A program made the translations under genes and the position numbers. Under the pieces are notes generated by a model that did no database searches, was not told the origin of the DNA, and saw nothing but the letters and a program-made list of their open reading frames with translations. A stretch of 64,000 nucleotides of DNA from Escallonia rubra (lineage: Eukaryota > Streptophyta > Magnoliopsida > Escalloniales > Escalloniaceae). Shown piece after piece: positions 24,397 to 56,955 of this stretch. Position 1 is the stretch's first letter, and each line of letters starts with the position of its first letter. The DNA lies in the NCBI GenBank assembly GCA_033065855.1, contig JAVXUO010001293.1, positions 1-64,000 of the forward strand, read 5' to 3'.

Positions 24397-24816
24397 TCAA
24401 TCACGAGAGGGACGACGAAGGTCGCGGAAATAGGTAGCAGGGTCACGCTCAAAATCGTCCCTATAAATTTTGCCGTCCCTTCCAGGTGCTTTCATCGTCT
24501 CCCTCTCGTCAGCAACGGGGGTCTCCGAGGAGCCAGAGGGACGACGAAGGCTGCGGAAATGGGAAGCAGGGTCACGCTCAAAATCGTCCCTATAAATGGT
24601 GCCGTCCCTTCCAGGTGCTTTCATCGTCTTCCTCTGGTTGTCAGCAACGGGGGTCTCTGAGGAGCCAGAGAAAAGGCTGAATATGCCCTTTGCCACAAGA
24701 GCTGCACCAGCCAATACCCCGACCCCTACCCCAATAACCTTGGCTACCTCGTCCTTCCTTTTCCTCGGAGAATCGGGGGAAGGGCCGTTGCTGTTGTTGT
24801 GTCCAGATCCACTCAT
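24397..24816 (-). CDS. A1: small single-pass membrane protein with duplicated MKAPGR module
   Basis: An uninterrupted 139-residue frame from ATG at 24816. Residues 1-23 are polar and Ser/Asn/Lys rich; 27-49 form one membrane segment (IGVGVGVLAGAALVAKGIF) with closely spaced glycines. Then follow two copies of a 43-residue module, each with SSETPVAD, MKAPGRDG (65 and 108), a YRDDFERDPA box and FR(S/D)LRRPS. Other A copies have one module, so A1 gained a 129-bp in-frame tandem duplication. There is no signal peptide. The family resembles uncharacterised small plant proteins ending in an MKAPGR...NP..YFR motif (from memory, not searched). No function is known to me. The TATA box upstream and an intact frame argue that it is expressed. 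Confidence 0.7.
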   Translation of the reverse strand: MSGSGHNNSNGPSPDSPRKRKDEVAKVIGVGVGVLAGAALVAKGIFSLFSGSSETPVADNQRKTMKAPGRDGTIYRDDFERDPASHFRSLRRPSGSSETPVADERETMKAPGRDGKIYRDDFERDPATYFRDLRRPSRD

Positions 24817-24874
24817 TCTATATGTGCTTGATTCTCAGGCTGGTCAATGTGCATAATGTATAGGCCACTTTGGT

Positions 24875-24884
24875 TATATATATA
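24875..24884 (-). promoter_or_regulatory. TATA box of A1
   Basis: TATATATATA lies about 60 bases upstream of the A1 start on the minus strand, inside a block conserved with A2 (CCACTTTGGTTATATATATAG). Confidence 0.6.
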
Positions 24885-25016
24885 GGGACCTTGGAGGAGC
24901 CTGAAGGTCACCTGGGGATGGGTGGTTTCTTGGGTAAGTCAACAGTTGTGGTACCAAAAATATTTAGGGAGACTAAGAGGGTGTGATCTTGGGAAAAGTT
25001 TTGGCGATTTTCCGGG

Positions 25017-25262
25017 TTGTAAAAAGGTAATTACAACTTTTATATAGTGATAATTATTGAGCGTTAAAATATCTTTAGTAGCTTTTATTTAGTGAGATTA
25101 AAAGGTGCTGCACATAATTATCGTGGAAAGTGTAAGCATATTAGTTACCGCTATATAAAGAATATCTATTGTGAGACTAAAAGGTGTTGCACATAATTAT
25201 CGTGGAAAGTAGCTAACTATATATAACGATCATTAGTTACCGCTATATATTGTACCTATCTT
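25017..25262. mobile_element. Hairpin MITE (copy M3) with internal duplication
   Basis: Starts GTTGTAAAAAGGTAATTACAAC and ends near TGTACCTATC. A segment containing GTGAGACTAAAAGGTGTTGC, CACATAATTATCGTGGAAAG occurs twice, making this copy longer than the others. Confidence 0.6.
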
Positions 25263-26712
25263 TGTGTAATCTTGATAGTCACACCGTGATCTTAGTAACT
25301 TGAAGATTTGACCAGTTAATGCACAGATACATAACTTTAGTTGTATTTAATTAAGTTTTATCTCTATATGGAGTAGAAAAGACATTTTTGTAAATGTTTT
25401 ATTTCATTCCAAAGTACGAATGTACAATATTATTGTCATCTATGTAGCTTTAAACGAAAAGGAGGACAACTCCGCCCCCACGCAACACCCCCCCCCCCCC
25501 CCCAGCATGGGTGGTGAGGATAAGGATCATATATTGCATATCATCTCTGTTATTACAGTTTACTAACAAAAGATTGTCATTAAAAGTGTTTTGTTGCTGT
25601 TACTTTGTGCCAACCTTTTGTCCTTAAAACATATATATTTTGTGAAATTTTTTGTCATGTACATCATAGAATCCTCGAGCCAGTTTAAGATTGATTTTCA
25701 AAACTAATTTTTTGATTAAAACATAAAAAGTAATTTTAATTAGTTATTAGCAGAATTAGTTTCGGTTTAGTAAAAGTTATGGAAACACTTGCTTAAAGAT
25801 GTGCAAGGCGTATGGCTAATAGTGAGAAGAATAACTAAAAAGAACATCAAAGAACATGCAAAATTCTCAATATTTTTCGTTTACAGAAAACTTAAAGTAG
25901 ATAAAATTTATACTATAACTATATCTTCACTCTTTTGTAACGAACTAATTCAATTGTTCTATAAATATTTTTAAATATTTGTTCACCGTCTCATTGTATC
26001 TAGTTGCACACGGTAAAAATATTTAATGAACTTTAGTATGTGAGGGTAATTTAGAATTTTAATATGTAAAACCTGTTTTTTCCCTAAAATATGTAGAACC
26101 ATTTTGGGTGCTTTAAGCACCATGTCATTTTTTTTAAAAATACAACTCAACTTGTTTTAAAATTTTAAAATAGGTTTGACCACTCCAGAATTAATACCAA
26201 AAGTCTTCCTAATCTGGATGATGCTGTTTCAGTAACATGCTGAAATAATTGCAGTGTGCATTGCTTTCTGATCTGCGGTAAAAGACACATACGCAGGATA
26301 ATCAAGTCTCTCAATTATTATCTATTAGGTGATTTTATTGTAAAGATTCAATCAACATGAGTATAATTTATTAGCGACGAAAGAGGTTTTTAGTAGCCAG
26401 CAACAACAGTACGAAGACTACGCAAAGACTAGTGTTCAATAGTTAGGTACCAATTGATTGACTTTTTCGTCTACCCTCTAAGAAAAACAATTCAATTAAT
26501 TACAGATAAGGACGAAAAAAAGTTGTTAAAGTGGCTTATAATGAAAGCAAAAGGAATATGACCAAAGGACACATCATGCACACCACTAACTTTCTATGTT
26601 CCTCGTAGACTTAAACACGTAGCTTTGCATATGACAGGTAGATGCCTTAATCACCATAATTGACGCTTGACGAGGAAAAAGAGACACTGAAAAGTTTTGG
26701 CGCCTTTCCCTG
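25263..26712. repeat. Intergenic repeat block YZ, copy 1
   Basis: Ordered boxes: CCAAAGTACGAATG with a poly(C) run at 25490-25503, GAGCCAGTTTAAGATTGATT, CATGCAAAATTCTCAATATT, and GTTTCAGTAACATGCTGAAA with a TTAGGTACCAATTGATTG box. No gene is seen. The same order recurs at 26.86, 34.03, 38.86 and 49.8 kb. Confidence 0.65.
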
Positions 26713-26855
26713 TTGTAAAAAAATAACTACAACTTTTATATAGTGAGAGAAAAGAGTTTTGCACAGAATTGTCGCTGAAAGTGTAAGCAAAAATTTCACT
26801 AACTATATATAAAGATTATTAATTGTCACTATATGAAGGATTGTACCCATCTTTG
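26713..26855. mobile_element. Hairpin MITE (copy M4), internally deleted
   Basis: Retains both ends (TTGTAAAAAAATAACTACAA and CACTATATGAAGGATTGTAC) but lacks about 40 inner bases relative to M6. Confidence 0.6.
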
Positions 26856-28153
26856 TGTAATCCGGATAGTCACAAAGAAAATTTTCGTAATCTTAGTAAC
26901 TAGAAGATTTGACCAGTTCACATATACATAAGTTTAGTTGTATTTAAGTTTATCTCTATATGGAGCAGAAAAGATATGTTTGTAAATGTTTTAATTCATT
27001 CCAAAGTACGAATGCACAATATTATTGTCATCTATGTAGCTTTAAACGAAAAGGAGGACAACTCCGCCCTCACGCAACACCCCCCCCCCCCCCCCACCTT
27101 CCCTCCCCCTCGGTGGTGAAGATAAGGATCATATATTGCATAGCATCTCTTTATTACAGTTTGCTGACAAATTGTCATTAAAAGTGTTTTGTCGCTATTA
27201 CTATATGACAACCTTTTATCCTTCAAATGTATTTTGTGAAAATTTTTGTCATGTACATCATAGAATTCTCGAGCCAGTTTAAGATTGATTTTCAAAGCCA
27301 GTTTTTTGACTAAAACATAAAAAGCAATTTTAATTAGTTATTTGCAGAATCAGTTTCCGTTTATTAAAAGCTATGGAAACACTTGCTTAAAGATGTGTAA
27401 GGCGTATGGCTAATAGTGAGAAAAATAACTAAAAAGAGCATCAAAGAACATGCAAAATTCTCAATATTTTTCGTTCACAGAAAACTTCAAATAGATAAAC
27501 TTTATACTATAGTTATATCTTCACTATTTTGTAACGAACTAATTCAATTTCACCGTCTCATTGTATCTGGTTGCACACGGTAAAAATATTTAATGAACTT
27601 TATTATGTGAGGGTAATTTAGAATTTTAATACATAAAACCTGTTTTTTTTTTCCCGAAAATCTATAGAACCATTTAGGGTGCCTAAAACACCATGTCATT
27701 TTTGTAAAATAAAACACAACTTATTTTAAAATCTTTAAAATAGGTTTGACCACTCTAGAATCAATATCAAAAGCCTTCCTAATCTAGGTGATGCTGTTTG
27801 ATTAACATGCTGAAATAATTGCAGTGCATATTTTCTTTTTGATATGCGGTAAAAGACACCTATATAGGAAAATCAAGTCTCTCAATTATTTTCTACTAGG
27901 TGCTTTTATTGTAAAGATGCAATCAACATGAGTATAATTTATTAGTGACGAAAGAGGTTTTTAGTGCCCCGCAACAACAGTACGAAGACTCTGCAAAGAC
28001 TAGTGTTCAATAATTCAGTTAGGTACCAATTGATTGACTTTTTCGTCCACTACATTTGCTTCCTCACGAAGAAAAACAATACAATTATTTACATATAAGG
28101 ACGAAAAAGAGTTGTTAAAGTAGGCATATAATGAAAGCAAAAGGCAAAAGAGA
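26856..28153. repeat. Intergenic repeat block YZ, copy 2
   Basis: Tandem neighbour of copy 1 with the same order of boxes, a poly(C) run near 27080-27095 and the TTTCGTCCACTACATTTGC box near 28042. It leads directly into C1. No gene. Confidence 0.65.
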
Positions 28154-29488
28154 CACTTTTCCTCGTCTTCTTCGACAAGATTTTTCTAGTAGAGATCAAC
28201 AGAGAGACAAGTACTACCAGATGGTGCACCTTTTATCGTGGCTGGGTTAGTTTTAGGGCTAATTACACCTATGTCCCTGAGGTTAGGGGGTAATTACAGT
28301 CAAGGACACTAAGTTTCAAAATGTAACATACGTGACCAAAAAAAGTTAAAAAAGTAACACTTTTATCCAACCGTTAGGGTTCCGTCCAAAAAGTGTAATT
28401 TTCGTCATTACGTATTTTGAAAATGGCAATATTGCCCCTGTACAGTATATCGTGAATAATTATAATTTATAAATTTTAAATTAGGATATCAAACCCTAAT
28501 TTTTTTAAATTAGGGTTTTAAAACCTAATTTGAAAATTAGGCTTATCAAACCCTGAAATTAAGAACCTAATTTGAAAATTAGGGTTTCAAAACCCTAATT
28601 TTCAAATTAGGGTTTCTATCTCCAGATCTGATCTCGCCGCCAGCAGCCCAAGCCTCATCCCTCACCCCACGCCGCCGGCAGCCTCTCTCGGCCCACCATC
28701 CGGCAGACTCGCCCCACCCCACCACGCCGGCAAGCCCTTTGGCAAACCCACACCGCTGATACGCCGCCGGCAAGCCCCTTGGCAAACCCACGCCGTTGAG
28801 ACACCGCCGGCAGCCCTTTCTCACTCTAAACCCCATTTCAATTCAATTCAGTAATTCAATTCAATTCAACGGAGTGGTCGTCGTCATTTCTTGGGCGACG
28901 GGGGTCTTTGAGCGATGATCGGCGTCCGACTCGAGGAGAGGAGAGAAAGCTGTGCGACGACGGGGGAGGGGGAGGGTGGTACGGTGGCCGGGGAAGGGTG
29001 AGGGTGTTGCGGTGACGGGGATGGGGCCAATGATTGTAGCGACGACGAAGGGCGGAGGCAGACGGGGTGGGTGGGGGGTGACTGGGGGAGGGAGGGCTGG
29101 GGGGGGGGGGGGGCGAAGGGCAGGGGTGTGGGTGGCGGCGAAGTGGATGGGGAAAGGGTGGGGGAAGAGAGAGAGAGTGAAAAAAATTTAGGGTTTTTCT
29201 TTTCTAAAAAGAGACAATGGCATTTAAAAAAATAACTTTCTAACCTAAGGGTAATAAAGTCATTTTGTTAAAACCGTTAGAATTTTTAGGGTTCCGTTTG
29301 GTCAATGGACACAAGTGTAATTTGTTCAAACTATTGTCCTTGCCTGTAATTACTCAAAAACCTCAGGGATATAGGTGTAATTAACCCTTAGTTTTAATAA
29401 TATGTATATGTTTCCGCCGCAAAGGGAGAGCACAGAAGACGATGAAAGCCCCATAGAGAAGTACAATGATTTCAGGGCGGACCTCTGA
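28154..29488 (+). pseudogene. C1: B-derived MKAPGR gene fragment split by a MULE
   Basis: The left part (28154-28255) aligns in order with the middle of B-type genes: a TTTCCTCGTCTTCTTCGAC segment equivalent to the helix before the membrane, then GGTGCACCTTTT...GCTGGGTTAG encoding the membrane segment. The right part (29397-29488) continues with the Arg-rich stretch and ACGATGAAAGCCCC (MKAP) and ends at TGA. A 1132-bp transposon sits between them. Frameshifts and in-frame stops are present as well. Confidence 0.65.
28256..29387. mobile_element. Non-autonomous MULE with 9-bp target duplication
   Basis: Terminal inverted repeats: GGGCTAATTACACCTATGTC at the left and, inverted, GGGTTAATTACACCTATATC at the right. 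Exact 9-bp duplications TTAGTTTTA lie at 28247-28255 and 29388-29396. Inside are alternating AAATTAGGGTTT inverted repeats (28480-28615), then a GC-rich core at about 28615-29180 that might be captured gene sequence. No transposase is seen. The 9-bp duplication assigns it to the Mutator superfamily. Confidence 0.85.
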
Positions 29489-31207
29489 AGTTAAAAAAAA
29501 ATATCTAATTATTTTGTGCTAAGAAAACTTTCAAAATAAATAAACTTTATATTATGATTATTTCTTCACTGTTCTGTATAATGAACTGCTTCATATGTTA
29601 TATAACTAATTTTAAATATTTGTTCACTATTTCTTTGTATCTAATTGTATAGAGTAAGAATATATAGTAAAGCCTTAAAAAGAACAATCTTAAAAGAAAA
29701 GAAAGGCATCTAATGTGGCATATTGTAAAAAATGTGAGGGTAATTTGGTACTTTTGGTGGTCAAACATGTTTTTCCGAAAGTATTTAAAATCATAAATAG
29801 CAAAACCGTGGTTCATGGTTTTAAACTTTTTTTTTATTTCTTTTTTTTTTGTTTTATGAAACACAGACCTGCTTTAAACTATTCAAAATAGGTTTAACTA
29901 CTTTAGAATCAATCTAAAAATTCTACTTGCTTTAAACAAAATAAAAAATATTTGCCTATTTTAGAATTAAACTCAAACACCATCCTACACTATTTTACTT
30001 TGGGTGGTGCAGTTTAATTGAGTTATAGTAATTGTACTCTGTAGATTTGCTTTCTCATCTGATCTGCTAGCTGTGGTAAAAGACACCAACACATGATAAT
30101 CAAGTCTCTCCGTTATTATCTACTAAGTGCTTTTATCGTAAAGATGCAATTATCATTAATACAATTTTTAGCGACGAAAGAGATTTTTAGTGGCCAACGA
30201 CAATATCACGAAGACTCTGCAAAGACTAGTGTTAATTTACAAAGACTAGTGTTAATTACTTGAGGATGATTTGGTTAGGTAGCAATTAATTGGCTCTTTT
30301 GTCCACTTTATTAGTTTGCTTCCTCACAAAGGAAAATAGTAATATTGTTAGAAATTTGATAGGATAGGAATCACAACTATAGACTTTGAGACGCGTAACG
30401 CTATCTTTAAAGTTTTATTTGTCACCACTCAAAATCGAGTTTGCTAACGGGTTAACGACAAACAATCGTCCGGGATACAACAAAGTCTTTTGAGAATCTT
30501 CAAATAGCAAATTTGAAAATTCCCCTTGAAATTTTCTTCAAAGCAAAGTACGTTTTGGCCATAGAAATTTTACAGAAAAAAAGAGATAGCAAGCAAGGGT
30601 TCTGGAAGAACACAAAAATCTTGTATTTATAAAACCTGAGGTGTAACAGAATATACACAACTGTTGGGAGAAGGCAATTGAAACATTTAAAAAATTTGAA
30701 ATAAAATAACTGTCAGAAAATAAATCAAAATCAAAATTTTAAATAAATCACACCTTTTTAGTAAATCTATTTTCTCTGAAAATACAAAATATTTTCCAAA
30801 AAACACACGCCTAAACTTGCTCACCCGCATGCGGATAGCATGGGAACTATTTTCTTATGTAATCCGCATCCGACCCACCCCATTGCCATTCTTATTTTAA
30901 ATTAGTTTTTGATTAAAACTTAAACAGCTTTCAAAAATAATTCTAATCGGTTATTAACGGAACCGGTTTTCATTTAGTAAAAGTTACAGAAATACTTGCT
31001 CAAAGGTGAGAAAGGTATTTGGCTAGTAGTGCTGAAAACCATGCTAGCTAGTACGAAAATTAACCAAAAAGAGCATTAAAGAACATGCAGAATTCTCAAT
31101 ATTTTTCGTGAGTAAAAATTTTAGAATAAACAAACTTGATATAATAGCTATTTCTTCCCTCTTTTGTGCGGAGTGTAACAAACTACTTCATATGCCCTAT
31201 AAATATA
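29489..31207. repeat. Cluster repeat U, copy 1
   Basis: About 1.7 kb that follows C1 and recurs after C2 (35.65-37.55 kb) and C4 (41.37-42.74 kb). It includes an LTR-like segment. No gene is supported. Confidence 0.65.
30346..30893. mobile_element. LTR-like segment (copy 1), truncated
   Basis: Starts TGTTAGAAATTTGATAGGAT and contains a promoter-like CTTGTATTTATAAAACC, as in plant LTRs. The end is cut relative to the copy at 42.24 kb. No target duplication was recognised, so this is tentative. Confidence 0.35.
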
Positions 31208-31216
31208 TTTAAATAT

Positions 31217-31386
31217 GGGTCGTGATTTATTGCTAGCGCTAGCACGTTGCTAGCGCTGTTTTGCCGTCCGCTACATAATGTAGCGGACGATAATTTACCG
31301 TCCGCTACATAATGTAGCGGACGATAATTTACCGTCCGCTACATTATATAGCGGACGTTGCTAGCGCTAGCAACGGATCAGCTCCC
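31217..31386. mobile_element. 170-bp palindromic MITE with three inner palindromes
   Basis: Inverted ends: GGGTCGTGATTTATTGCTAG and, inverted from the right, GGGAGCTGATCCGTTGCTAG. Both continue into CGCTAGCA. The 9-bp flanks TTTAAATAT (31208-31216) and TTTGAATAT (31387-31395) agree at 8 of 9 positions. The sister repeat at 37.33 kb shows the empty site. Inside, a 25-bp palindrome starting CGTCCGCTAC and ending GTAGCGGACG occurs at 31265-31289, 31299-31323 and 31333-31357, with a 34-bp period. The 9-bp duplication suggests a Mutator-type source. Confidence 0.85.
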
Positions 31387-31395
31387 TTTGAATAT

Positions 31396-32133
31396 TTGTT
31401 CACCATTTCTTTATATCTGTTTGCACATAGAGATACAGAGTAATACTCAGTGAAGCTCAAAAAGGAACAATTTTTTTAGAAAAAAGCATTCAGTGTCATG
31501 CCGTAATAAATGTGAGAATAATCTAGTACTTTTGTGCGTGAAACCTGCTTTTTTGAAAGTGTGTAGAACCATAAACCACAGTTTCTAGAATCGTTGCAAA
31601 CATTTTTTCTTTTATTTTTTGGGTGTTTTAGCACCTTACCTGTTCTTCCAAATATAACAAAAACCTGTTTTAAAATGTTTAAAATTTGTTTCACTATTCT
31701 AGAATCAATATCAAACACCCACCTAATTTGAGTTGGGTTATTTTATTAACATGCTAGAGTAATTTTCGCCTATACACACACACACACACACAAGCTTACT
31801 TTCTGATATGCGATAAAGACACCTACACTGGATAATCAAGGTGGTCCTTTTATTGTAAAGGTACAATTAACATAGATACAACTTTGTAGCGAGGAAAGAG
31901 GTTTTTAGTGCCATCGAGAACAGCACGGTGGCTCGGCAGACTAGTGTTAATTAGTTGAGTATGACTGGTGTAGGTAGTTGGTACCAATTAATTGGCTTCT
32001 TTGTCCACTACATTTGCTTCCTGTGGAAGGAAAATAGTAGAATGATTGCAGATAAAAAAAAAAAAAAACAACCGTTAAAGTAGGATCGCAATGAAAGCGC
32101 AAAAGGAGATCATGAAATGAACAAATTTCGGTA
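31396..32133. repeat. Cluster repeat sequence with (CA)n
   Basis: AT-rich repeat DNA shared with 37.34-37.55 kb and 23.1-23.47 kb. A (CA)n microsatellite lies near 31773-31791. No gene. Confidence 0.55.
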
Positions 32134-32320
32134 CAATCTTCTTCCAACTTCGCATAGAGTGAAAATTATTAGTCGCTACATCTTTTTAATAATTTTTCTG
32201 ATAACACTTTTAGCGACAATTCATAATAGCATTTTTTTAACTCCACTAAATGAAAAGCCACTAGATATATTGAACGACTATATATTAATTGTCACTATAT
32301 GAGAGGTTGGAGAAAAATTC
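32134..32320. mobile_element. Hairpin MITE (copy M5)
   Basis: Colinear with M2 and at the same position relative to A2 as M2 has to A1. It was therefore probably duplicated with the gene rather than inserted independently. Confidence 0.7.
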
Positions 32321-33303: not shown

Positions 33304-33624
33304 TCAATCACGAGAGGGACGATGAAGGTCGCGGAAATAGGTAGCAGGGGAATGCTCAAAATCGTCCCTATAAATGGTGCCGTCCCTTCCAGGTGCTTTC
33401 ATCGTCTTCCTCTGGTTGTCAGCAACGGGGGTCTCTGAGGAGCCAGAGAAAAGGCTGAATATGCCCTTTGCCACAAGAGCTGCACCAGCCAATACCCCGA
33501 CCCCTTCCCCAATAACCTTGGCTACCTCCATGAACTCCTCGTCCTCCTTTTTCTTCTGTGCATCGGAGGAAGTGGCGGTGCTGTTGTTGGGTCCAGACCA
33601 CTCTGTGCTCTTGTTTCCACTCAT
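33304..33624 (-). CDS. A2: small single-pass membrane protein, MKAPGR family
   Basis: An intact 106-residue frame from ATG at 33624. Residues 1-36 are polar, with an acidic/basic stretch KKKEDEEF. Residues 37-59 are a glycine-rich membrane segment (VGVLAGAALVAKGIFSLF), followed by SGSSETPVAD. The C-terminal module has MKAPGRDG at 75-82, YRDDFE and PATYFRDLHRPSRD. It carries a single module, unlike A1, and is the best candidate for the ancestral A architecture. The topology cannot be fixed; Lys residues flank the segment on both sides. No function is known. Position: downstream of MITE M5 and flank block, promoter block to its right. Confidence 0.7.
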   Translation of the reverse strand: MSGNKSTEWSGPNNSTATSSDAQKKKEDEEFMEVAKVIGEGVGVLAGAALVAKGIFSLFSGSSETPVADNQRKTMKAPGRDGTIYRDDFEHSPATYFRDLHRPSRD

Positions 33625-33682
33625 TCTTTATATGCTTGATTCTCAGGCTGGTCAATGTGCATAATGTGTAGGCCACTTTGGT

Positions 33683-33692
33683 TATATATATA
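33683..33692 (-). promoter_or_regulatory. TATA box of A2
   Basis: TATATATATA at the same distance from the ATG as in A1, inside the same conserved promoter block. Confidence 0.6.
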
Positions 33693-34028: not shown

Positions 34029-35440
34029 GTGTGATCAGGATAGTCACAAAGAAAATTTCCGTGATCTTAGTAACTTGAAGATTTGACCAGTTAATTCACA
34101 GATACATAACTTTAGTTGTATTTGAGTTTATCTCTATATGGAGTAGAAAATATATTTTTGTAAATGTTTTATTTCATTCCAAAGTACGAATGCACAATAT
34201 TATTGTCATCTATGTATCCTTAAACGAAAAGGACAACTCCGCCCCCACGCAACACCCCACCCCCTCCGCAACACGGGTGGGGATAAGGACCATATATTGC
34301 AGAGCATCTCGATCTGTTATTACAGTTTACTAACAAAAAATTGTCATTAAAAGTGTTTTGTCGCTGGTACTATGTGACAACCTTTTGTTCCTAAAATATA
34401 TTTTGTGAAAATTTTTGTCATGTACAACATAGAATCCTTGAGCCAATTTAAGATTGATTTTCAAAACTAGTTTTTTGATTGAAACATAAAAAGCAATATT
34501 AATTAGTTATTAGCAGAATCAGTTTCCGTTTAGTAAAAGCTATGGAAACACTTGCTTAAAGATGTGTAAGGCGTATGGCTAATAGTGAGAAAAATTACTA
34601 AAAAGAGCATCAAAGAACATGCAAAATTCTCAATATTTTTCGTTTACAGAAAACTTAAAATAGACAAACTTTATACTATAGCTATATCTTCACTCTTTTG
34701 TAACGAACTAATTCAATTGTCCTATAAATATTTTTAAATATTTGTTCACCGTCTCACTGTATCTGGTTGCACACGGTAAAAATATTTAATGAACTTTAGT
34801 ATGTGAGGGTAATTTAGAATTTTAATATGTAAAACCTGTTTTTTTTTTCCCGAAAATCTGTAGAACCATTTAGGGTGATTTAATCACCATGTCATTTTTG
34901 TAAAGTACAACACAACTTGTTTTAAAATCATTAATATAGCTTTGACCACTCTAAAACCAATACCAAAAGCCTTTCTAATTTGGGTGATGCTGTTTCATTA
35001 ACATGCTGAAATAATTGAGTGTGCATATTTGCTTTCCGATATGCGGTAAAAGACATCTACAGAGAAAAATCAAGTCTCTCAATTATTATATACTAGGTGC
35101 TTTTATTGTAAAGATGCAATTACCATGAGTATAATTTATTAGTGACGAAAGATTTTTTCTGTGGCCAGCAACAATATTACGAAGACCCTGCAAAGACTAG
35201 TGTTTAGTAGTTTCAGTTAGGTACCAATTGATTGGTTTTTTCGTCCATTACATTTGCTTCCTCACGAAAGAAAACAATACAATTATTTGCAGATAAGGAC
35301 GAAAAAGATTTGTTAAAGTAGGACTATAACGAAAGCAAAATAAAATTTTGACCCCACGCCAACTTTTTATGTTCCTCGTAAACTTAAACATGTAGCTTTG
35401 CATATGACACGAAGATGCCTTAATCACGATAATTGATGCT
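34029..35440. repeat. Intergenic repeat block YZ, copy 3
   Basis: Same box order as 25263-26712, ending at the CGATAATTGATGCTTGACG sequence that precedes C2. No gene. Confidence 0.6.
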
Positions 35441-44752: not shown

Positions 44753-45066
44753 TCAATTATGAGGGGGACGATGAAGGTTGCGGAAATAGGCAGCAGGGTC
44801 ACGCTCAAATTCATCCCTAGGAATGCTGTAGTCCCTTCCGGGTGCTTTCATCATCTTCGTCTCGTTCGCAGCAGTGGTGGTCTCTGAGGATCCATAGAAA
44901 AGGCTAGAAATGCCTTTGCAGCAAGAGCTACACCAGCCACTGCCGCAACTCCTATCCCAACAACCTTGGCTACCTTCATCGACTCCTCCTTTTCCTTTTC
45001 CTTCATCTGAGTGTTCGGAGTAACCGGAGGGTCACATCGATTTGGGTGGTCCTTTGGGTAAGCCAC
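44753..45066 (-). pseudogene. A3: broken A-type MKAPGR gene
   Basis: The KVAKVVGIGVAAVAGVALAA membrane segment and the module MKAPGRDYSIPRDEFERDP with YFRNLHRPPHN and a stop are both readable, but in different frames. One C is missing in the ATGCC(C)TTTGC stretch near 44912 compared with A5. The 5' end is also gone: sequence jumps from GTGTTCGGAG straight to GGAGGGTCACAT, losing the start codon and TATA region present in the sister copies. It lies 0.94 kb left of and divergent to B1. Confidence 0.75.
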
Positions 45067-46007: not shown

Positions 46008-46502
46008 ATGAGATCTCAAAGCCTGATGATCAATGTGCGAGAACATCTGAACAAGATGGAAACAGATAACTGGATGAACTATGTGCGAGAAATGAGATCA
46101 CAAAGCCTGATGATCAATGTGCGAGAACATCTGAACAAGATGGAAACAGATAACTGGATGAACTATGTGCTTGACAAGTTGAAGGGATTTCTGCTGGTGC
46201 TACAAAACTTTGGTAGATCTGTGCTGGATTGGTTTGACAAGGTCTTTCCACCTGACACCAGAGGAGACCAGCTCCGCCACTGGCTCCACGTGGGTGCGCC
46301 GTTTCTGATAGCTGCCGTGGTCCTCATCACCTGCATTTGGTGCTGCAAGCGCCTCTGCCGTTGCTGCTGTGGCCGAGGGAGAGTCGGTAAAATGATGAAG
46401 GCTCCAGGGAGGAATTTGAGGATGCCAAGGAATGTGTTTGAGAGCAACCCCAGATCATACTTCAGCAATCTCCGCGCAAATCCTGGCGATAAACTTGTCT
46501 AA
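46008..46502 (+). CDS. B1: MKAPGR-family membrane protein with duplicated N-terminus
   Basis: 164 residues from the ATG at 46008. An in-frame GTG lies 9 bases earlier, but ATG is preferred. Residues 1-28 (starting MRSQSLMINVREHLNKM) are repeated almost exactly as 29-56, an 84-bp tandem duplication absent from B2. Then comes an amphipathic helix (LDKLKGFLLVLQNFG), VLDWFDKVFPPDTRGDQLRHW, one membrane segment at about 95-112 (VGAPFLIAAVVLITCIW) and a Cys/Arg-rich strip (CCKRLCRCCCGRGR) that could be S-acylated. The C-terminus is MMKAPGRN...NVFESNPRSYFSNLR. There is no signal peptide. A 1-kb context is shared with B2. The function is unknown; the shared C-terminal module ties it to the A genes. 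Confidence 0.7.
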   Translation: MRSQSLMINVREHLNKMETDNWMNYVREMRSQSLMINVREHLNKMETDNWMNYVLDKLKGFLLVLQNFGRSVLDWFDKVFPPDTRGDQLRHWLHVGAPFLIAAVVLITCIWCCKRLCRCCCGRGRVGKMMKAPGRNLRMPRNVFESNPRSYFSNLRANPGDKLV

Positions 46503-46783: not shown

Positions 46784-46848
<65 letters not shown>

Positions 46849-47667: not shown

Positions 47668-47993
47668 TCAATCATGAAGGGGACGATGAAGGCTGCGGAA
47701 ATGGGAAGCAGGGTCAGGCTCAAAATCGTCCCTATAAATGATGCCGTCCCTTCCAGGTGCTTTCATCGTCTTCCTCTGGTTGTGAGCAACGGGAGTCTCT
47801 GAGGAGCCAGAGAAAATGCTGAATATGCCCTTTGCCACAAGAGCTGCACCCCTGCACCAGCCAATACCCCAACCCCTATTGCAACCACCTTGGCTACCTC
47901 CATGAAGTCCTCGTCCTCCTTTTGCATCTGAGCATCGGAAGTGGCGGTGCTGTTGTTGGGTCCAGACCACTCTGTGCTCTCGTATCCACTCAT
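47668..47993 (-). pseudogene. A4: A-type MKAPGR gene with an 8-bp frameshifting duplication
   Basis: The start (MSGYESTEWSGPNNSTAT, ATG at 47993) and the TATA-containing leader are intact. After VVAIGVGVLAGA the frame breaks: GCTGCACCCCTGCACCAGCC replaces the family's GCTGCACCAGCC, a tandem 8-bp duplication near 47845-47860. The rest (ALVAKGIFSIFSGSSET, MKAPGRDGIIYRDDFEPDP, stop at 47668) is clean in the next frame. The lesion looks recent, because no other disabling change is seen. Confidence 0.8.
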
Positions 47994-48177
47994 TCTATAT
48001 ATGCTTGTTTCTCAGGCTGGTCAATGTTCATAATGTGTAGGCCACTTTGGTTATATACAGAGGAACCTTGGAGGAACTTGAAGGTCACCTAGGGATGGGT
48101 GGTTTCTTGGGCAAGTCACGAGTGTGAAAGGTTGACCAGTTATTGTACCATTAAATATTTAGGGAGACTAAGAGTGT

Positions 48178-49572
48178 GTTTGGAACCATGAAATTGATGA
48201 AATTTCATTTCAAATCCTTAAATTTTGTTGTTTAGAACATTAAAAAAAGGAATTGGAATTTGATTTCATGGGATTTGACTGAATTTGTTTCTATAGTGTG
48301 AAATCCGATGAAAAATGGTCGGATTTAATGGGATTTCGATTTACTTGAATTAAAATTAATTATTTACCTATCTTACCATTTTTTCTCTGGATCTCTCCAA
48401 CAATGAACCCACCACCACCATCTTCATTGCCGTTACCGCAACACCACTTTTATTACCACCACCAGCACCACTACTGTCGCCACCACCACCGTCGTCGCCG
48501 CCACTACTACCACCACTGCCACCACCACCACTGCCACTGTCGCCATCACTATCACTGTCGTTGCCGCCACAACCAATGCGAACACTACCGCCACCACCAC
48601 CACAACCACCACTACAACCACCACCGCCACTGCATCCCTCAACTCTACCCCACCGCCATCGCCACCGCCACCAACAGTACTGCCACTACTGCCACCACCA
48701 CCACCATTGCCACCCCTATTGCCACCACCACCGCCACTGCATCCCCCACCACTACCGCCACTGCCACCACCGCCAGTACTACCACAACTACCACCGTCGC
48801 CACCACTACTACCACCACCAACGCCACCACTGCCACCACTGCCACCACTGCCACCACAACCACTATCGCCGCAGCTGCCACCAATAATGCCACTACCACC
48901 ACCGTCACCACCACCACTATTGCCACCACCGCCACTACTGCCTTTACCCCCACCACCATCACTACCACCACCACCACCACCACCATCACCGCAGCAACCA
49001 CTACTGCCACCACTACCACCACTATTGCCACCACCATTACTGCCACCATTGATGCCGCCATTACTGCCTTCACCCCCACCACCATCACTACTGCCGCCAT
49101 CACCACCATCGCCGCCGCCACCACTACTACTGCCACCACAACCGTCGCCATCACTACTGTCGCCTCCGCCGCCACCACTATTGCCACCACCGCCGCCACT
49201 ACTACCATCGGCATCACAATTGGCGTCAGTTGATGACCTCTAGTTACACTTTGTTACACCTCAATACCACGACTACCATCATTACCATCACTTGACCACC
49301 CAACCACCGTCGATGTTGCTACACCGTGCAGTGCCGCCGCTGCCGCCACCACCATGTGCTGGCACTAGCACACTTGAAACCATTTACCGTAATTTATTTT
49401 TCATCGTAAATCAAGGATATAATTGTCTAAAAAATTATTACCTTTCCATTTCCTATGTTCTCCAAACACAAAATTGAAATTTTGTTATTTGAATTCCCTT
49501 TCGTTCCAAACAAAAAGAAGTGAATTGAATTCCAAATCTGAAATCCAAATCCCAAAAGAATTGGTTCCAAAC
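48178..49572. mobile_element. Trinucleotide-rich element with inverted termini
   Basis: Inserted in the A-gene promoter landscape. Left end GTTTGGAACCATG, right end GAATTGGTTCCAAAC, with GTGT on both sides. The subterminal halves (AATTTCATTTCAAATCC left; GAAATCCAAATCCC right) are also inverted relatives. The core, 48405-49235, is an imperfect (CCA/CCG/ACT)n tract. Frames of up to 276 codons there are repeat translations. The superfamily is not assigned. Confidence 0.6.
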
Positions 49573-49607
49573 GTGTGATCTTGGGAAAAGTTTTGGCACC
49601 CTCCCGA

Positions 49608-49795
49608 ATTGTAGAAGGATAACTACAACTCTTATATAGCGACAATTATTGAGTATTAAATGTTTTTAGTAACTTTTATTTAGTGAGACAAAAAAATATT
49701 CTTCATAATTATCGCTAAAAATGTAAGCAAATATTTCGCTAATTATATTTAACAACTATTAATTGTCATCGTACGAAGGATTGTAGCTATCTTAT
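49608..49795. mobile_element. Hairpin MITE (copy M8)
   Basis: TTGTAGAAGGATAACTACAA at the left; TTGTCATCGTACGAAGGATT at the right. Confidence 0.6.
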
Positions 49796-51120
49796 ATAAT
49801 CTCAATAGCAACAAAAAAAATTATTGTGATCTTAGTAACTCAAAGATTTGACCAGTTAATGCAACGATACATAAGTTTAGCTGCATTTAAGTTCATCTCT
49901 ACGGAGTAGAAAATATATTTTTGTAAGTGTTTTATTTCGTTCCAAAGTACTAATGCACAATATTGTTATGTATGTATATAGCTATAAACAAAAAAGACAA
50001 CGACCACCCCCACCCCTTCCTCCCTGGGGCGGTGAGGATAACGATCATATGTTGTATAACATTCAATACTTAATGAAATTTTTGTGTTGTACATCATAGA
50101 ATCTTAGAGCCAGTTTGGGGTTGATTTTCAAAAATTGTTTAATACTAGTTTTTAGTGGAATCAGTTCCCCTTAGTAAATGTTACGAAAGACCCGCTTAAA
50201 GATGTGAAAGGCATATGGCTAATAATGCTAAAAACAATGTTAGTGTGAAAAATAACCAAAAAGACCATCAAAGAGCATGCAAAATTTTCAATATTTTCCT
50301 TTTACAAAAAATTTGAAATTCATAAAGTTTATATTATAGCTATTTCTTCACCCTTTTGTATAATGAACTAATTCAAACTGCGCTAAAACATTTGTTCACC
50401 ATCAGTACGAATATTTAGTGAAGCCCTCAAAATAATAATCTGCTTCAAAAAGAAAAGAAAAAAAAAAGCACTCATTGTCATATTGCAAAAAAGTGAGGAA
50501 AATTGAGTACTTTGGTTGGTGAAACTTGTAATTTCAGAAGTACTATGGTTTATGGCTGTAAACATTTTGTTTGGGGTGCTTTAACCACCTTGTCGTTTTT
50601 GTCAACTACAACACGAACCTGTTTTAAAACAGGTTCAATCACAACCAGGTCCATTCTAAAATCAATACCAAACACCTTTCTAATCTGGGTGGTGATGTTT
50701 CATTAACATGCTGAAGTAAATGCAATCTTTATATTTGGTTTCTGATCTGCTATAAAAGACACCTACACAGGGTTTCTCAACTATTCTCTTCTAGGTGCTT
50801 TTATTGTAAAGATGCAATCAACATGAATATAATTTTTTAGCGAAGAAAGAGGTTTGTAGTGGCCAACAACAACAGTACGAAGAATTTGCAAAGACTAGTA
50901 TTGAGTAGTTGACGACGACTCGGTTAGGTACCAATTGATTGGCTTTTTCTCCACTACATTCGCTTCCTCACGAAGGAAAACAGTACAATTATTTGCAGAT
51001 AAATACGAAAGAGAATCGTTAAAGTAGGACCATATTGAAAGCAACATGAAGCGATCAAACGATTAGACATCATATACACCACTAAGTTAGTAGTGACTTG
51101 CAACCAACTTCGAAATTCTT
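49796..51120. repeat. Intergenic repeat block YZ, copy 5
   Basis: Same box order as the other YZ copies. The part from 50690 onward is also duplicated at 53440. No gene. Confidence 0.6.
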
Positions 51121-51141
51121 TTGACCCGACAACAACTTTAT

Positions 51142-51182
51142 ATGTTCCTCGAAAAAGTTGAATATGAAACTTTGCATATGAT

Positions 51183-51213
<31 letters not shown>

Positions 51214-51420
51214 GTGCTGTTGTTCCTGTTCAACAGAGGGAGACAAGTACCGGCGAGTGCTGCACCTTTTCTCTTGGCTGGGTTAGTTCTAATAATTTGC
51301 ACATTTGCTGCCGAGAGCTGGGGAGCAGGGAAGACGATGAAAGCCTCAGGGAGAAGTACAATGATTTCAAGGCAGGCCTTTGAACGTAACCCCAAAGCTT
51401 ACTTCCGCAAGCTGTGTTGA
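51142..51420 (+). pseudogene. C6: B-derived gene remnant with a surviving short frame
   Basis: A 92-codon frame runs from ATG 51142 through a (GA)n-encoded Glu-Arg repeat into AAPFLLAGLVLIICTFAAE (membrane segment), GKTMKASGRS, SRQAFERNPKAYFRKLC and TGA. The C-terminal module is complete and in frame, with Pro of MKAPGR replaced by Ser. The normal B N-terminus is missing and replaced by repeat sequence. It may be a pseudogene or a minimal new member; only expression data would tell. Confidence 0.5.
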
Positions 51421-51613
51421 TGTTCCTCCCAATCGGCACACAAGGGTAATGGCAAAGTTTCAGCCAATTGTTAACATAGGGTGGTTATGCAAACTCATCT
51501 CCAGTTGCTTCAGCCTCTGCACCCATCTTTCCTGACCATTCTTTTCCGTAAGGAAATGTTACTTTCGTTCTGATTATATGTTTTTGGAAAAAAAATTGGT
51601 TGTTACCTTGATT

Positions 51614-51797
51614 GGAAGAATCTTCATCCTACCTCCTATATAGCGACAATCAATCATTTTTAAATATTTCTAGTGACTTTTATTTAGTGACGTTAAAAAA
51701 ATGCTGCTAATAATTGCAGCTGAAAGTAGAAGAAAAGTCACTAAAAATATTTAGTAACTATTAATTATCATTATAGAAGGAGTTGGAGGAAAATTCC
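51614..51797. mobile_element. Hairpin MITE (copy M9)
   Basis: GGAAGAATCTTCATCCTACC at the left pairs with GAGTTGGAGGAAAATTCC at the right. Inner ATTGCAGCTGAAAG and TAGTGACTTTTA / AAAGTCACTA boxes pair as well. Confidence 0.75.
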
Positions 51798-52519
51798 TAC
51801 AACCGAGTAGGAGCCATGATAAGACAGATAAGAAAGTGAATTAAAATACAAGGGGTAGAAGAACCTCTTGAATGAATAAGTTCAGCTGTACCTGTCTGCG
51901 TGACAACTTGGTGTAATCTGGTGCTCATGCAATGTCTTTTCCCCTTATATGTTCGTTCGTATTTCCTACTGAGAATTATGTTTGCCACACACACACACGC
52001 ACACACTCGTTCCATATACAATCCATTTTTGCGATGGTAATGGCAAATTGATTTTTGCCAAATATTACTAATGACAAATTTTTGTAACACCAGATATTAA
52101 AAACCGATAAGCGTATTCAGCAAATATCATTAATTTCTTACAACTCGAATCACGGTCAAAGTGACGGTGAAAATTTTTCTGCCAATTATTCCATGGGACG
52201 ACGTGCTCGTTGAACCAAAACACAAATATCTTTGCAACATAACGCCGTGAAAATTAATATTCACGACGGTGGATTGTGGGTTGTGGAATGTGGAATGTAA
52301 TGAAGGATTGGATAGATGGAGATATTCATAAGTAGAGAGCCATTAGCATTCAAAGCTGTGATCAAATCATCGCTGACACAACATAAACAACTAAACACTA
52401 CGAACATTACTACTCCAGAAAAGAAGGAAAAATACAGTGAATTATTAGGTGAATACTTTGACATCCAAGTAGAAGAATCTAAACGCTGACAGAGTCTACA
52501 CGCAGTGACGCAGACCAAA
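51798..52519. repeat. Flank block between M9 and A5
   Basis: Contains a short (AC)n at 51988-52006 and the A-gene 3' boxes. No gene. Confidence 0.55.
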
Positions 52520-52925
52520 CTTTTTACTTAGATGCACCAAGATAGATAAATTTGTTGCCCCGGCCTGCGGCGCCCCTCGTGGTGTCATCACGAGGGGGAC
52601 GGGGAGGACGAAGGATGGGGACTTCAATCCTAGAAATTTTGCAAGCCTTTTCAAGTGCTTCATTCATCTTCGGCTCGGTGTGAGCGGCAAGCATGCCCTT
52701 TGCGGCAGTACTGGTGGTTTCTGAGGAGCCAGAGAAAAGGGTAGATATGCCCTTTGCGGCAAGAGCTACACCAGCCACTGCCGCAACCCCCCTATCCCAA
52801 CCACCTTGGCTACCTTCGTCAACTCCTGCTTTTCCTTTTCCTTCATCTGAGCGTTCGGAGGAAGTGGCGGTGCTTGTTGTTGTTGTATACGGAGTAGACC
52901 ACTCTGTGCTCTCGTCGTTGTATGC
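52520..52925 (-). pseudogene. A5: heavily decayed A-type gene
   Basis: Three defects relative to A2 and A6: the start codon region reads ACGACGAGAGCAC with no ATG; two extra C in the GCAACCCCCCTATCCC stretch shift the frame before the membrane segment; and the C-terminal module reads MNEALEKACKISRIE instead of MKAPGR..., with an internal deletion. The membrane segment AGVALAAKGISTLFSGSSET is still recognisable. Confidence 0.75.
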
Positions 52926-53045
52926 TTGATTTTCAGGCTGTTAATGTGCGTAGGCCAGTCTGGTTATATAGGAGCATTGGAGGAACCGGAGGGTCACATG
53001 GATATGGGTAGTCCATTGGGTAAGCCACAAGGGTAAAAGCTTAGA

Positions 53046-53290
53046 AATATTCCCCATTTTATCTACTTATTTTGATTCCCTACGGCAACTCCTGGTACCA
53101 AAAATGTCTAGGGAGACTGATTGGGAATTATTTCCCATTTTATCTAATTATTTGGTTACCAACAGCAACTCATAGCACCAAGAATGTTTAGGGAGAATGA
53201 TTGGGAAATATTGTCCATCTCATCTACTTATTTGATTTCCAATGGCAACTCATGGTTCATTGGTTTCCAAAAATATTAAGGGAGACTAAA
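53046..53290. repeat. 84-bp tandem repeat upstream of A5
   Basis: Three units of the same minisatellite as at 45067-45360 (CCCATTTTATCTA, CAACTCATGG, AATGTTTAGGGAGA). Confidence 0.75.
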
Positions 53291-54022
53291 AGGGTGAGAT
53301 GTTAATAACTCGAACATTTTGACAAGTCAAAGCATTGATACATAATTTATCAATGCATTGAACATTTTGCAATCTGTATTTTTAACTCGAACATTTTGAC
53401 AAGTCATTCTAAAATCAATAGGAAACACCTTCCTAATCTGGGTGATGATGTTTCATTAACATGCTGAATTAATTGCAATCTGTATATTTGGTTTCTGATC
53501 TCTGCTATATATAAAAGACACCTACACAGGGTAATGAAGTCTCTCAATTATTATCTTTTAGGTGCTTTTATTGTAAAGATGCAATCAACATGAATATAAT
53601 TTTTTAGTGAAGAAAGAGGTTTGTAGTGGCCAACAACAATAGTACGAAGACTTTGCAAAGACTAGTGTTGAGTAGTTGACGACGACTCGGTTAGGTACCA
53701 ATAGATTGGCTTTTTCTCCACTACATTCGCTTCCTCACGAAGGAAAACAGTACAATTATTTCCAGATAAATACGAAAGAGAAGCGTTAAAGTAGGACCAT
53801 AATGAAAGCAAAATGAAGCGATCAAACGATTAGACATCATATACACCACTAAGTTAGTAGCAACTTGTAACAAACTTCGAAATTCTTTTGACCCGACACC
53901 AACTTTATATGTTCCTCGAATATGTAACTTTGCATATGATAGGAAAATGCCTTCGTCACGAATAATTGATGCTTGACTAGGAAAAAGAGGCGTTTTTCTT
54001 CATCTTCCTACGCCACTTTCCA

Positions 54023-54026
<4 letters not shown>

Positions 54027-54062
<36 letters not shown>

Positions 54063-54255
54063 GCTCTTATTCCTGTTTAACAGAGGGAGACAAGTACTAG
54101 AACGTGGTGCACCTTTTCTCTTGGCTGGGTTAGTTCTAATTATTTGCACATTTGCTGCCGAGAGCTGGGGGAGCAGGGAAGATGATGAAAGCCCCAGGGA
54201 GAAGTACAATGATTTCAAGGCAGACCCCAAAGCTTACTTCCACAAGCTGTGTTGA
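54027..54255 (+). pseudogene. C7: B-derived gene remnant, frameshifted
   Basis: Starts with a (GA)n run of about 34 bp. GAPFLLAGLVLIICTFAAES is readable, but one extra G in GCTGGGGGAGCAGGG moves MKAPGR out of frame relative to C6. A 15-base deletion (the FERN codons) precedes KAYFHKLC and TGA at 54253. Confidence 0.65.
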
Positions 54256-54265
54256 TGTTCCTCCC

Positions 54266-54491
54266 TGTTAGCGACCATTTAATGGTGGTATGAAGCATGT
54301 ATATGTACAGCTTATCCACTTATCTTCTCATCACAATTTTGTATTTTAAACTTAAATTCCTTTTGTTTAACTTTCAGATTGTATCTACGTTAGATATGAT
54401 TATCTGTAAACTCAAATGATTTGTATTCTATATAAATAGAGAAGATCACTCACTTAAGGTGTGTGATTCCAGTGATACCTTTCCATTTACA
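54266..54491 (+). mobile_element. Solo LTR, 226 bp, with exact 5-bp target duplication
   Basis: TGTTAGCGACC...TTTACA, bounded by CTCCC at 54261-54265 and 54492-54496. The empty site is present in unit 1 (TTCCTCCCAATCGG at 51422). A TATA-like CTATATAAATAGAG lies at about 54430. TG...CA ends with a 5-bp duplication define an LTR retroelement; the lone copy implies internal recombination. Confidence 0.9.
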
Positions 54492-54671
54492 CTCCCAATC
54501 GGCACACAAGGGTACTGGGCAAAGTTTCAGGCACTTGTTAACATAGGTTGGTTATGCAAACTCATCGATCTCCAGTTGCTTCAGCCTTCAAGCACCCATC
54601 TTTCCTGAACATTAAATGATACTTTCGTTTGATTATATGTTTTTGGAAAAAAATTGATTGCTATTCAGGTC

Positions 54672-54861
54672 GGAGGAATCTTTCTTTTACCCTCTATATA
54701 GCGACAATCAATCGTTTCTAAATATTTCTAGTGGCTTTTATTTAGTGACGCTAAAAAAATATTGCTAATAATTATCACTGAAATTGTAAAGAGGAAAAGC
54801 CACTAGCAAAACATTTAATGATTATTAATTGTCATTATACACGAGATTGGAGGAAGATTCC
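54672..54861. mobile_element. Hairpin MITE (copy M10)
   Basis: GGAGGAATCTTTCTTTTACC at the left, GATTGGAGGAAGATTCC at the right. Same place in the tandem unit as M9. Confidence 0.7.
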
Positions 54862-55481
54862 TACAACCGGGTAGGAGCCATGATAAGACATATAAGAAAG
54901 TGAATTAACATACAAGGGGTAGAAGAACCTCTTGAATGAATAAGTTCAGCAATTAAACTGTACTCGTCTATGTGACATCATGGTGTAATTTGGTGCTCAT
55001 GAAATGTCTTTTCCCCTTATACGTTTGAATTTACTACTCAAAATTATGTTTGCCATATAGTCATCCCATATACGATCCATATTTGCGATGGTAATGGCAA
55101 ATTGAATTTTGCCAAATATCATTAAAGACAATTTTTTGTAATACCAGTTATTAAAAACCAATAAGCATATTCAGCAAACATCATTAGTCATCATTAGTCT
55201 CTTACGACCCGAATGACGGTCAAAATAATTTCTGTCCATGGGACGGCGTGCTCGTTGAACCAAAACACAAAACTCTTTGCAAAATAACGCCGTGAAAATT
55301 AATATTCACTAAGGTGGATTGTGGGTTGTATGTGGAATATAGTGAAGGATGGATATTCATAAGTAGAGAGTCATTAGCATTAAAAGCTGTGATTGAAACA
55401 TCGTTGACGCAACACAACAGTGAATTATTAGATGCACCAAGATAAATTTGTTGCCCCGGGCTGCCGCGCCCCCTCCTGGTG
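54862..55481. repeat. Flank block between M10 and A6
   Basis: Duplicate of 51798-52519, with a small TCATTAG repeat near 55177-55198. No gene. Confidence 0.55.
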
Positions 55482-55736
55482 TCAATCGCTAGGGGGAAGA
55501 CGAAGGTTGCGGAAATAGGTAGCAGGGTCACTCTCAAATTCATCCCTTGGAATGCTGCAGTCCCTTCCAGGTGCTTTCATCATCTTCGTCTCGCTGGCAG
55601 CAATTGTGGTTTCTGAGCAGCCAGAGAAAAGGGTAGATATGCCCCATGCAGCAAGAGCTACACCAGCCACTGCCGCAACCCCTATCCCAACCACCTTGGC
55701 TACCTTCATCAACTCCTCCTTTTCCTTTTCCTTCAT
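55482..55736 (-). CDS. A6: A-type MKAPGR protein with lost original start
   Basis: The ancestral ATG context (ATGAGTGGATAC) reads ACGAGAGGATAC here, and the original N-terminal frame ends in a stop. An in-frame ATG at 55736 still opens an 84-residue protein: a charged MKEKEKEELMK start, a membrane segment at about 12-34 (AKVVGIGVAAVAGVALAAW), SGCSETT, then MMKAPGRDCSIPRDEF with a DPATYFRNLRLPPSD end. Everything needed for the membrane segment plus module is intact. TATA-like GGTTATATAGG lies upstream near 55860. It is either a shortened functional form or an early pseudogene. It is divergent to B2, 0.8 kb away. Confidence 0.5.
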   Translation of the reverse strand: MKEKEKEELMKVAKVVGIGVAAVAGVALAAWGISTLFSGCSETTIAASETKMMKAPGRDCSIPRDEFESDPATYFRNLRLPPSD

Positions 55737-56207
55737 CTGCGCGTTCTGAGGAAGTGGCGGTGCTTGTTGTTGTTGTGTTGAGACCACTCTGTGCTCTCGT
55801 ATCCTCTCGTTGTGTGCTTGATTTTCAGGCTGTTAATTTGCATAATGAGTAGGCCAGTCTGGTTATATAGGAAAACTGGAGGAACCTTGGAGGAAACGGA
55901 AGGTCACCTGGGGATGGGGGCAAGTCAACCATCAATCAACTCATGGTACCAAAAATGTTTAGCCCAGCCTGGTTATTCCGGTTTCAAGGGGCCCGACATA
56001 AAATTTTATACCAAAGGTCTCTGGAACTGAATGCACAACTGTTTACACTGTTTATTGTAGACATCCATTTAAACTGTTATTTGGAGAGACAATAAAGAAG
56101 TATAAATAATAAATACTAAAAAATATATTACAATATCTTCTTAATTTACATAGAACAATTCAAAAAACTATACGATCATCTGGACAATCTAAAAAGAAAA
56201 TATAATC

Positions 56208-56234
56208 AATTATTTGGGACGGAGGGAATATAAA
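56208..56234. mobile_element. Single end of a Stowaway-like MITE
   Basis: TTGGGACGGAGGGAATAT is the typical inverted terminus of plant Stowaway (Tc1/mariner) MITEs. No partner terminus was found to the left. Confidence 0.45.
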
Positions 56235-56544
56235 AGAAAAAAGTCCATATTTATCTATTCAATGGTCTTGAGCCACTCACGTGACAATGATTTTAATACT
56301 AAAACATCAATAAATTTTAGCGCTGCCATCGTAATTATGGTCCACGATTATCGAAAGTTTTTGAGATTCTTTCATATTAAGACTTGGATGGTCAAGTAAT
56401 TAGGTAGGAAGTCTTGGTCTTTTTCTTTGGAAATAAAGCATCTCCACTATGCGAGAGTAGCTAGTTCAAAGACACTGCTGAAACAATTTAGTCACTTCAC
56501 TTTCCCTTTACCAGCAGCATCCTCTTTTTGAGCGTGTGAGAGAA

Positions 56545-56955
56545 ATGAGATCACAAAGCCTAATGATCAATGTGCGAGAGCATCTGAACAAGATGGAAAC
56601 AGATGACTGGATGAACTATGTGCTTGACAAGTTGAAGGAATTTCTGCTGGTGCTACAAAACTTTGGTGGGTCTGTGCTAGATTGGTATGACAAGGTTTTT
56701 CCACCTGGCACCAGAGGAGACCAGCTCCGCCACTGGCTCCGTGTGGGTGTGCCGCTTCTGATAGCTGCCGTGGTCCTCATCACCTGCATTTGTTGCTGCA
56801 GGTGCCTCTGCCGTCGCTGCTGCCGCGGAAGGGGAAGATCTAGGATGATGAAGGCTCCCGGGAGGAATTGTAGGATGCCAAGGCATGGGTTTGAGAGCAA
56901 CCCCAGATCATACTTCAGAAATCTCCGCGCAAATCCTAGCGATGAACTCGTCTAA
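56545..56955 (+). CDS. B2: MKAPGR-family membrane protein with Cys/Arg cluster
   Basis: 136 residues from ATG 56545. Residues 1-26 are polar and helical (MRSQSLMINVREHLNKM); 27-41 are amphipathic; 44-66 include VLDWYDKVFPP and GDQLRHWLR; 67-85 are one membrane segment (VGVPLLIAAVVLITCICCC). Residues 81-100 hold eight Cys and many Arg (CICCCRCLCRRCCRGRGRSR), a plausible S-acylation or metal-binding strip. The C-terminus is MMKAPGRNCRMPRHGFESNP at 101-120, then SYFRNLRANPSDELV. It is the unduplicated form of B1 and sits beside the P450, so it is probably the parent locus. The role is unknown. The charge pattern (basic after the segment) predicts a cytosolic C-terminus. Confidence 0.75.
   Translation: MRSQSLMINVREHLNKMETDDWMNYVLDKLKEFLLVLQNFGGSVLDWYDKVFPPGTRGDQLRHWLRVGVPLLIAAVVLITCICCCRCLCRRCCRGRGRSRMMKAPGRNCRMPRHGFESNPRSYFRNLRANPSDELV

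Follow-up and report, generated by a model that had tools for sequence, protein, structure and literature searches.

The Cys-rich transmembrane module (CYSTM) proteins constitute a small plant multigene family with a single Cys-rich membrane segment, and precursors of secreted peptides such as STMP and SCOOP are short proteins encoded in tandem arrays and sharing a conserved C-terminal motif. Group-2 executors (XA23, XA27, BS4C-R and others) are small plant membrane proteins with three to four predicted membrane helices in the proteins considered (PMC8835739). We analysed a family of small predicted membrane proteins lying in a 64,000-base window of the Escallonia rubra genome (bases 1-64000 of contig JAVXUO010001293.1, 219 kb, hereafter C1157), whose types A and B share a C-terminal tail that begins with the motif MKAPGR. 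B-type proteins are like CYSTM proteins in being small, in having a single, seemingly Cys-rich membrane segment and in forming a plant multigene family, but here a conserved tail follows the Cys stretch, and the A type has no Cys stretch. The Pfam CYSTM profile did not match the copies A1, A2, A6, B2 or C51 at E-values up to 5, although HMMER filters may hide very weak matches. The acidic cluster of the A tail may recall the executors, whereas one hydrophobic stretch, instead of three to four helices, was found in each of nine family frames. Full-length family copies, unlike the secreted-peptide precursors, have no signal-peptide-like start. As judged from the predicted proteins, membership in each of the three groups fails on one tested feature.

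Fifteen copies were located in the window by six-frame reading and DNA alignment: six A copies on the minus strand and, on the plus strand, two B copies and seven B-related copies, here called C. This agrees with an earlier note made from the sequence alone, which had also described a single, locally amplified family with birth and decay, a description that is supported here. Small membrane proteins whose genes are born and die in tandem arrays are a familiar kind of family. Open A copies are A1 (24397..24816, 139 aa, one membrane segment and two tandem tail modules), A2 (33304..33624, 106 aa) and A6 (55482..55736, 84 aa from an internal Met, the N-terminal part being lost relative to A2). Open B copies are B1 (46008..46502, 164 aa, with an in-frame N-terminal duplication of 84 bases) and B2 (56545..56955, 136 aa). 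A third one, B3, lies outside the window (C1157:65311-65730), as does a broken A copy (C1157:72215-72400), so the array continues past the window end. The open copies are predicted to encode single-pass membrane microproteins of about 80-165 residues. We propose, giving it about an even chance, that the family undergoes birth and death through segmental tandem duplication, and that its single-pass microproteins carry a conserved working tail on two unlike anchors, tethered at the membrane.

The tail comprises about 30 residues, MKAPGR being followed at fixed spacing by I/M, R, FE, P and F.R.L. In nine aligned tails, MKAPGR was invariant at every position but its P, as were a subsequent R, the F-E pair, a P, an F and an L; B3, outside that alignment, reads MRAPGR. 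A and B share the C-terminal part only, B2 matching A6 from residue 79 onwards with 47% identity (E 3.3e-9, whole genome). Over 27 codons of the tail, synonymous sites were saturated in 18 of 18 A-B pairs (13.7-17.9 differences at 16-17 sites, by path counting, which may exceed the number of sites), with a dN of 0.18-0.43. For the three pairs that were bootstrapped, dN/dS had upper bounds of 0.12-0.22 when dS was allowed to rise no higher than 3. We conclude that the tail is of old origin and was under strong constraint in the past, and that the shared tail is the conserved part, as the note had held. Because two unlike anchors carry it, and because A1 acquired an additional in-frame tail but no additional membrane segment, we take the tail to be the probable working unit. 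The locus points to an unannotated, old and selectively preserved short motif in plant microproteins; small open frames like these are often missed by annotation.

Hydrophobic stretches were scored in nine frames by simple hydropathy, with no trained predictor, and the best 19-residue mean of the single stretch ranged from 1.84 to 2.77. That of B ends in a Cys-rich and Arg-rich sequence (CICCCRCLCRRCC at the segment end in B2). B proteins carry a charge of +6 to +7 in the 15 residues after the membrane stretch, versus 0 to +2 before it. According to the positive-inside rule, the positively charged flank of a membrane segment is on the cytosolic side, and the B tail is therefore placed in the cytosol. 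There, the tail would serve as a short motif that binds a partner protein, while the anchor would merely fix it at the membrane, A and B anchors being interchangeable. The juxtamembrane Cys-rich stretch of B is possibly S-acylated, and paralogues may alter the dose or compete for the partner. The F-x-x-L at the tail end agrees with the loose consensus of ATG8-interacting motifs, which is too common to be informative. Exchange of the A and B anchors, the in-frame tail doubling of A1 and the graded decay of C copies offer natural experiments for dissecting function.

The same features were weighed against two other activities. A short conserved C-terminal module, a variable precursor, tandem paralogues and a natural in-frame doubling of the tail would also suit a phytocytokine-like precursor, from which the tail would be set free or displayed extracellularly to act as a signalling peptide. 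This we consider improbable, given the charge pattern of B, which points to a cytosolic tail, and the lack of a hydrophobic start in A1, its allele, A2, A7 and B1-B3 (best 10-residue mean at most 0.32 over the N-terminal 30 residues, scored with no trained predictor); the early hydrophobic peak of A6 and A8, whose frames begin at an internal Met, is the membrane segment itself. Executor-like proteins, damaging membranes or triggering cell death, are a very improbable alternative: the small size, membrane segment and lack of a known domain of the family, and the acidic cluster of its A tails, would suit them, but the single hydrophobic stretch contrasts with the several helices described for group 2 (PMC8835739), and the tails of B1 and B2 are basic, with 2-3 acids against 7 basic residues. 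The tail of B3 is neutral, and the six A tails counted, with an acidic cluster DDFE or DEFE, are about charge-neutral (5-7 acids, 5-9 basic residues). The earlier note had leaned towards a defence role; such a role is possible, and nothing speaks for it beyond the tandem array itself.

Genome searches covered 566 Mb in 3222 contigs. The degenerate MKAPG[R/S] pattern, taken without mismatch, gave 20 matches versus 1 for a reversed control: 12 on C1157, 2 on C1156, 3 on C3059, 1 on C676, which is a dispersed C fragment, and 2 on C982 and C3093, in frames unlike the family. Within the window, this pattern with up to 3 mismatches gave 35 matches, some of them non-family, versus 8.2 expected and a maximum of 22 in 100 shuffles. 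With the tail alone, at least 15 matches were found, every one on C1157, C1156 or C3059, a lower bound since this search misses decayed C copies. In these genome searches, the tail was thus found at two loci only, C1157 with an overlapping haplotig and C3059, plus the dispersed C fragment. The haplotig is the end of C1156: pieces of C1156:150001-176445 match C1157:1789-28414 at 96-99% identity, and C1156 is therefore read as probably the other haplotype, retained as a separate contig. It carries an open allele of A1 (143 aa), differing from A1 by an in-frame indel of 12 bases; the double tail is open in both alleles. The second locus, C3059:258.8-260.9 kb, holds two open A frames, A7 and A8, the latter beginning at an internal Met; a C-like copy there is interrupted by a stop.

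Selection since duplication was examined with tests that were all small-sample and that are weakened because of gene conversion (see below). The three B pairs had dN/dS values of 0.37, 0.50 and 0.40, and Fisher tests on rounded counts gave p 0.006 for B1-B2 and p 0.044 for B2-B3, the two pairs tested. In a neutral simulation of frame survival, for which the tree and the rates of indels were assumed, the three B frames all stayed open in 0.25% of 20,000 runs at the flank rate and in 1.2% at 0.7x that rate. By these measures, B has likely, but not certainly, been constrained since duplication. In A, dN/dS was 0.56-1.63 in 13 of 15 pairs, and about 6, with one synonymous change, for A1-A2 and for the A1 allele with A2. 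The earlier note had given ratios near 1 across intact copies, together with a lack of transcripts, as the mark of a dead repeat family; such ratios were observed in these 13 A pairs and not in the three B pairs.

Besides these A ratios, several observations weigh against the reading of a working tail tethered at the membrane. Codon-model likelihood tests against dN/dS = 1 were non-significant for both B (2 dlnL 3.1) and A (2 dlnL 2.4). None of the three B pairs shows much difference between codon positions, the third position changing least in B1-B3, and the third position was the fastest in just one of the four A paralogue pairs measured. The charges flanking the A segment give no clear topology. 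Finally, an antisense frame is open over 68-83 codons within six A frames and over 111-115 within the three B frames examined, and the sense frame is therefore not singled out by openness alone. Because of the dN/dS near 1 and the third-position pattern, current function of A is not shown; on these data, the A copies are relaxed or diversifying.

An overlapping antisense gene is nevertheless unlikely. The ends of the antisense frame are not common to the copies. Among four aligned A copies, its dN/dS was about 1.4 for A1-A2 and 0.39-0.79 for the other five pairs, and in five of the six it was below the sense-frame value; the two frames are indistinguishable by this ratio, because their third positions face each other.

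It may be, instead, that most of the array is a local repeat that is dead or on its way out, the remnant of an old functional family in which A and C now drift along with regional duplication and just B, perhaps one B or the C3059 genes, works; this is a substantial but clearly less probable alternative. The A ratios and the A codon-model test speak for it, as do the proportion of broken or altered copies (3 of 6 A and 7 of 7 C) and the long non-coding DNA included in the duplications. Against it, A1 is open in both alleles, which differ by the in-frame indel, and the second locus holds its two open A frames, one of them from an internal Met. In addition, the simulated chance for a single A frame to stay open was 0.20 at 5% and 0.08 at 8% divergence, so that three open A frames out of six is somewhat, not strongly, above expectation. 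If B alone were functional, the locus would be an ordinary birth-and-death cluster. As a whole, the earlier interpretation is partly supported.

A further reading, which we regard as unlikely, is that the tail forms an old binding peptide, autonomous and borne by unrelated membrane anchors, which in A is now diversifying at its contact positions. The A tails vary at the same few positions, reading ASHFRS in A1 module 1, A4 and A8, ATYFRD in A2 and A1 module 2, AAYFRN in A3, ATYFRN in A6 and AAYFCS in A7. A1 unites one ASHFRS and one ATYFRD tail, and its module 1 differs from the A2 tail by 8 nonsynonymous and 0 synonymous changes. These 8:0 changes, the presence of ASHFRS at both loci and the bivalent fusion in A1 are the reasons for this reading, and the variation of the A tails, though resting on few changes, suggests interface diversification. 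If true, diversifying A tails and a bivalent A1 would fit selection acting on a plant interaction or decoy system. Over the whole A1-A2 comparison, 19 nonsynonymous changes stood against 1 synonymous (Fisher p 0.053), and third positions held 2 of 23 differences (p 0.007). Positive selection in this pair was set aside as a mere hint, since a tract of 152 identical bases, spanning the membrane segment and the first part of the tail, suggests gene conversion between A1 and A2. Close to it, the A1 allele and A2 flanks differ at 4.5-6.7% of aligned sites, and the wider A1/A2 blocks are 85-87% identical, with indels; it is this identity amid diverged flanks that points to conversion.

We then consider the spread of the copies, which appears to have been mainly by segmental tandem duplication. 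Among the 25 largest self-comparison chains, tandem blocks of 68-90% identity include non-coding DNA along with genes (for example 50652-52992/53405-55893, 29388-31605/35551-37557 and 44701-47434/55428-57930). B2 and cytochrome P450 sequence (window 56182-63763) are repeated jointly at C1157:64985-71154, with 87-96% identity. This co-duplication would be expected if the family were a by-product of the expansion of the neighbouring P450 cluster, B genes hitchhiking on P450 duplications. We give that explanation little probability: A and C multiplied at 22-45 kb, without similarity to the P450 stretches in the self-comparison, and within C3059:250001-270000, where A and C copies also lie, blastn gave no match of more than 120 bases to the window P450 stretches. 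Transposition was set aside as the main route, as long flanks are common to the copies and the repeat at 34886-35353 is nearly confined to the locus. This repeat had at least 23 genome matches, all counts being lower bounds: C1157 carries 14 of them, counting the repeat itself, and C1156 carries 4; C676 and C2551 have one near-full copy each, and three are short stretches. The near-full copies on C676 and C2551 show that some dispersal occurred. Repeats of this 0.3-0.5 kb type are also seen at 20386-20728, 22665-23051 and elsewhere, and the C676 copy is accompanied by an adjoining C gene fragment.

The remaining copies are broken or altered to various degrees. On the minus strand, A3 (44753..45031) has a frameshift inside the membrane segment and A4 (47668..47994) an 8-base insert there that shifts the frame, a second frame giving a readable tail in both; A5 (about 52528..52992) is decayed and without MKAPGR. 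On the plus strand, no C copy of the seven combines an unaltered membrane segment with a whole tail. C51 (51097..51420, related DNA from about 51238) has an open frame of 107 aa, MKASGR and a whole tail, but frame changes altered its membrane segment. In C35 (35494..35703) and C41 (41210..41400) the tail is gone after MKAPGR, in C54 (54140..54271) MKAPGR is present and the remainder decayed, and in C43 (43181..43351) MKAPGR precedes a frame-shifted tail. C40 (40432..40593) has an upstream stop and MKSSGR, and in C29 (29388..29504) a stop interrupts MKAPGR. C copies resemble B upstream of the tail too, residues 39-115 of B2 matching C40 (one internal stop) and residues 62-122 matching C41. MKAPGR and a membrane segment, which the note had attributed to all copies, are thus not universal: the exact motif is found in 11 of 15 (A1, twice, A2, A3, A4, A6, B1, B2, C35, C41, C43 and C54), and C43 is without the segment.

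Within the database and literature searches made, the motif appears undescribed. No Pfam match above the curated cut-off was obtained for A1, A2, A6, B2 or C51. The lowest E-value was 0.0025, for residues 92-120 of A1 and Sipho_tail (18.5 bits versus a cut-off of 24.2); four more weak matches for A1 and three for B2 also fell short of their cut-offs, and A2, A6 and C51 had none. NCBIfam gave SecE for A2 at E 0.07, below the cut-off, and nothing for B2. Eight parathyroid-hormone chains, matched by B2 among PDB sequences at E of at least 0.45, were judged chance hits. Rfam had no match in window positions 20000-64000. No relatives were detected in viral contigs (B2 and seven tails), in bacterial and archaeal genomes (seven tails) or in plasmids (B2). 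In the open literature searched, MKAPGR and other family peptide strings retrieved no relevant paper, MKAPGR occurring once, in an unrelated context.

Some observations concern the surroundings of the copies. Pfam identified NOP14 and cytochrome P450 exons within the window; the NOP14 exon is protein-identical between C1156 and C1157. Cytochrome P450 sequence adjoins the array in tandem, at 57853-63763 and at C1157:65-84 kb, one exon being confirmed by Pfam and the other stretches by DNA similarity or by eye. At 48349-49253, open frames of at least 150 codons occur in five of the six frames; they are of low complexity (mostly H, P, T, A or G, V), and by appearance are not a gene. At the second locus, two A frames lie in direct tandem (C3059:260265-260879), their stop-to-stop stretches less than 20 bases apart, and unequal exchange at such a tandem could yield something resembling the double tail of A1. 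Beside this locus on C3059 is an open frame of 510 codons (L030:5925-7454), which may resemble a PORR-type organelle RNA-binding protein.

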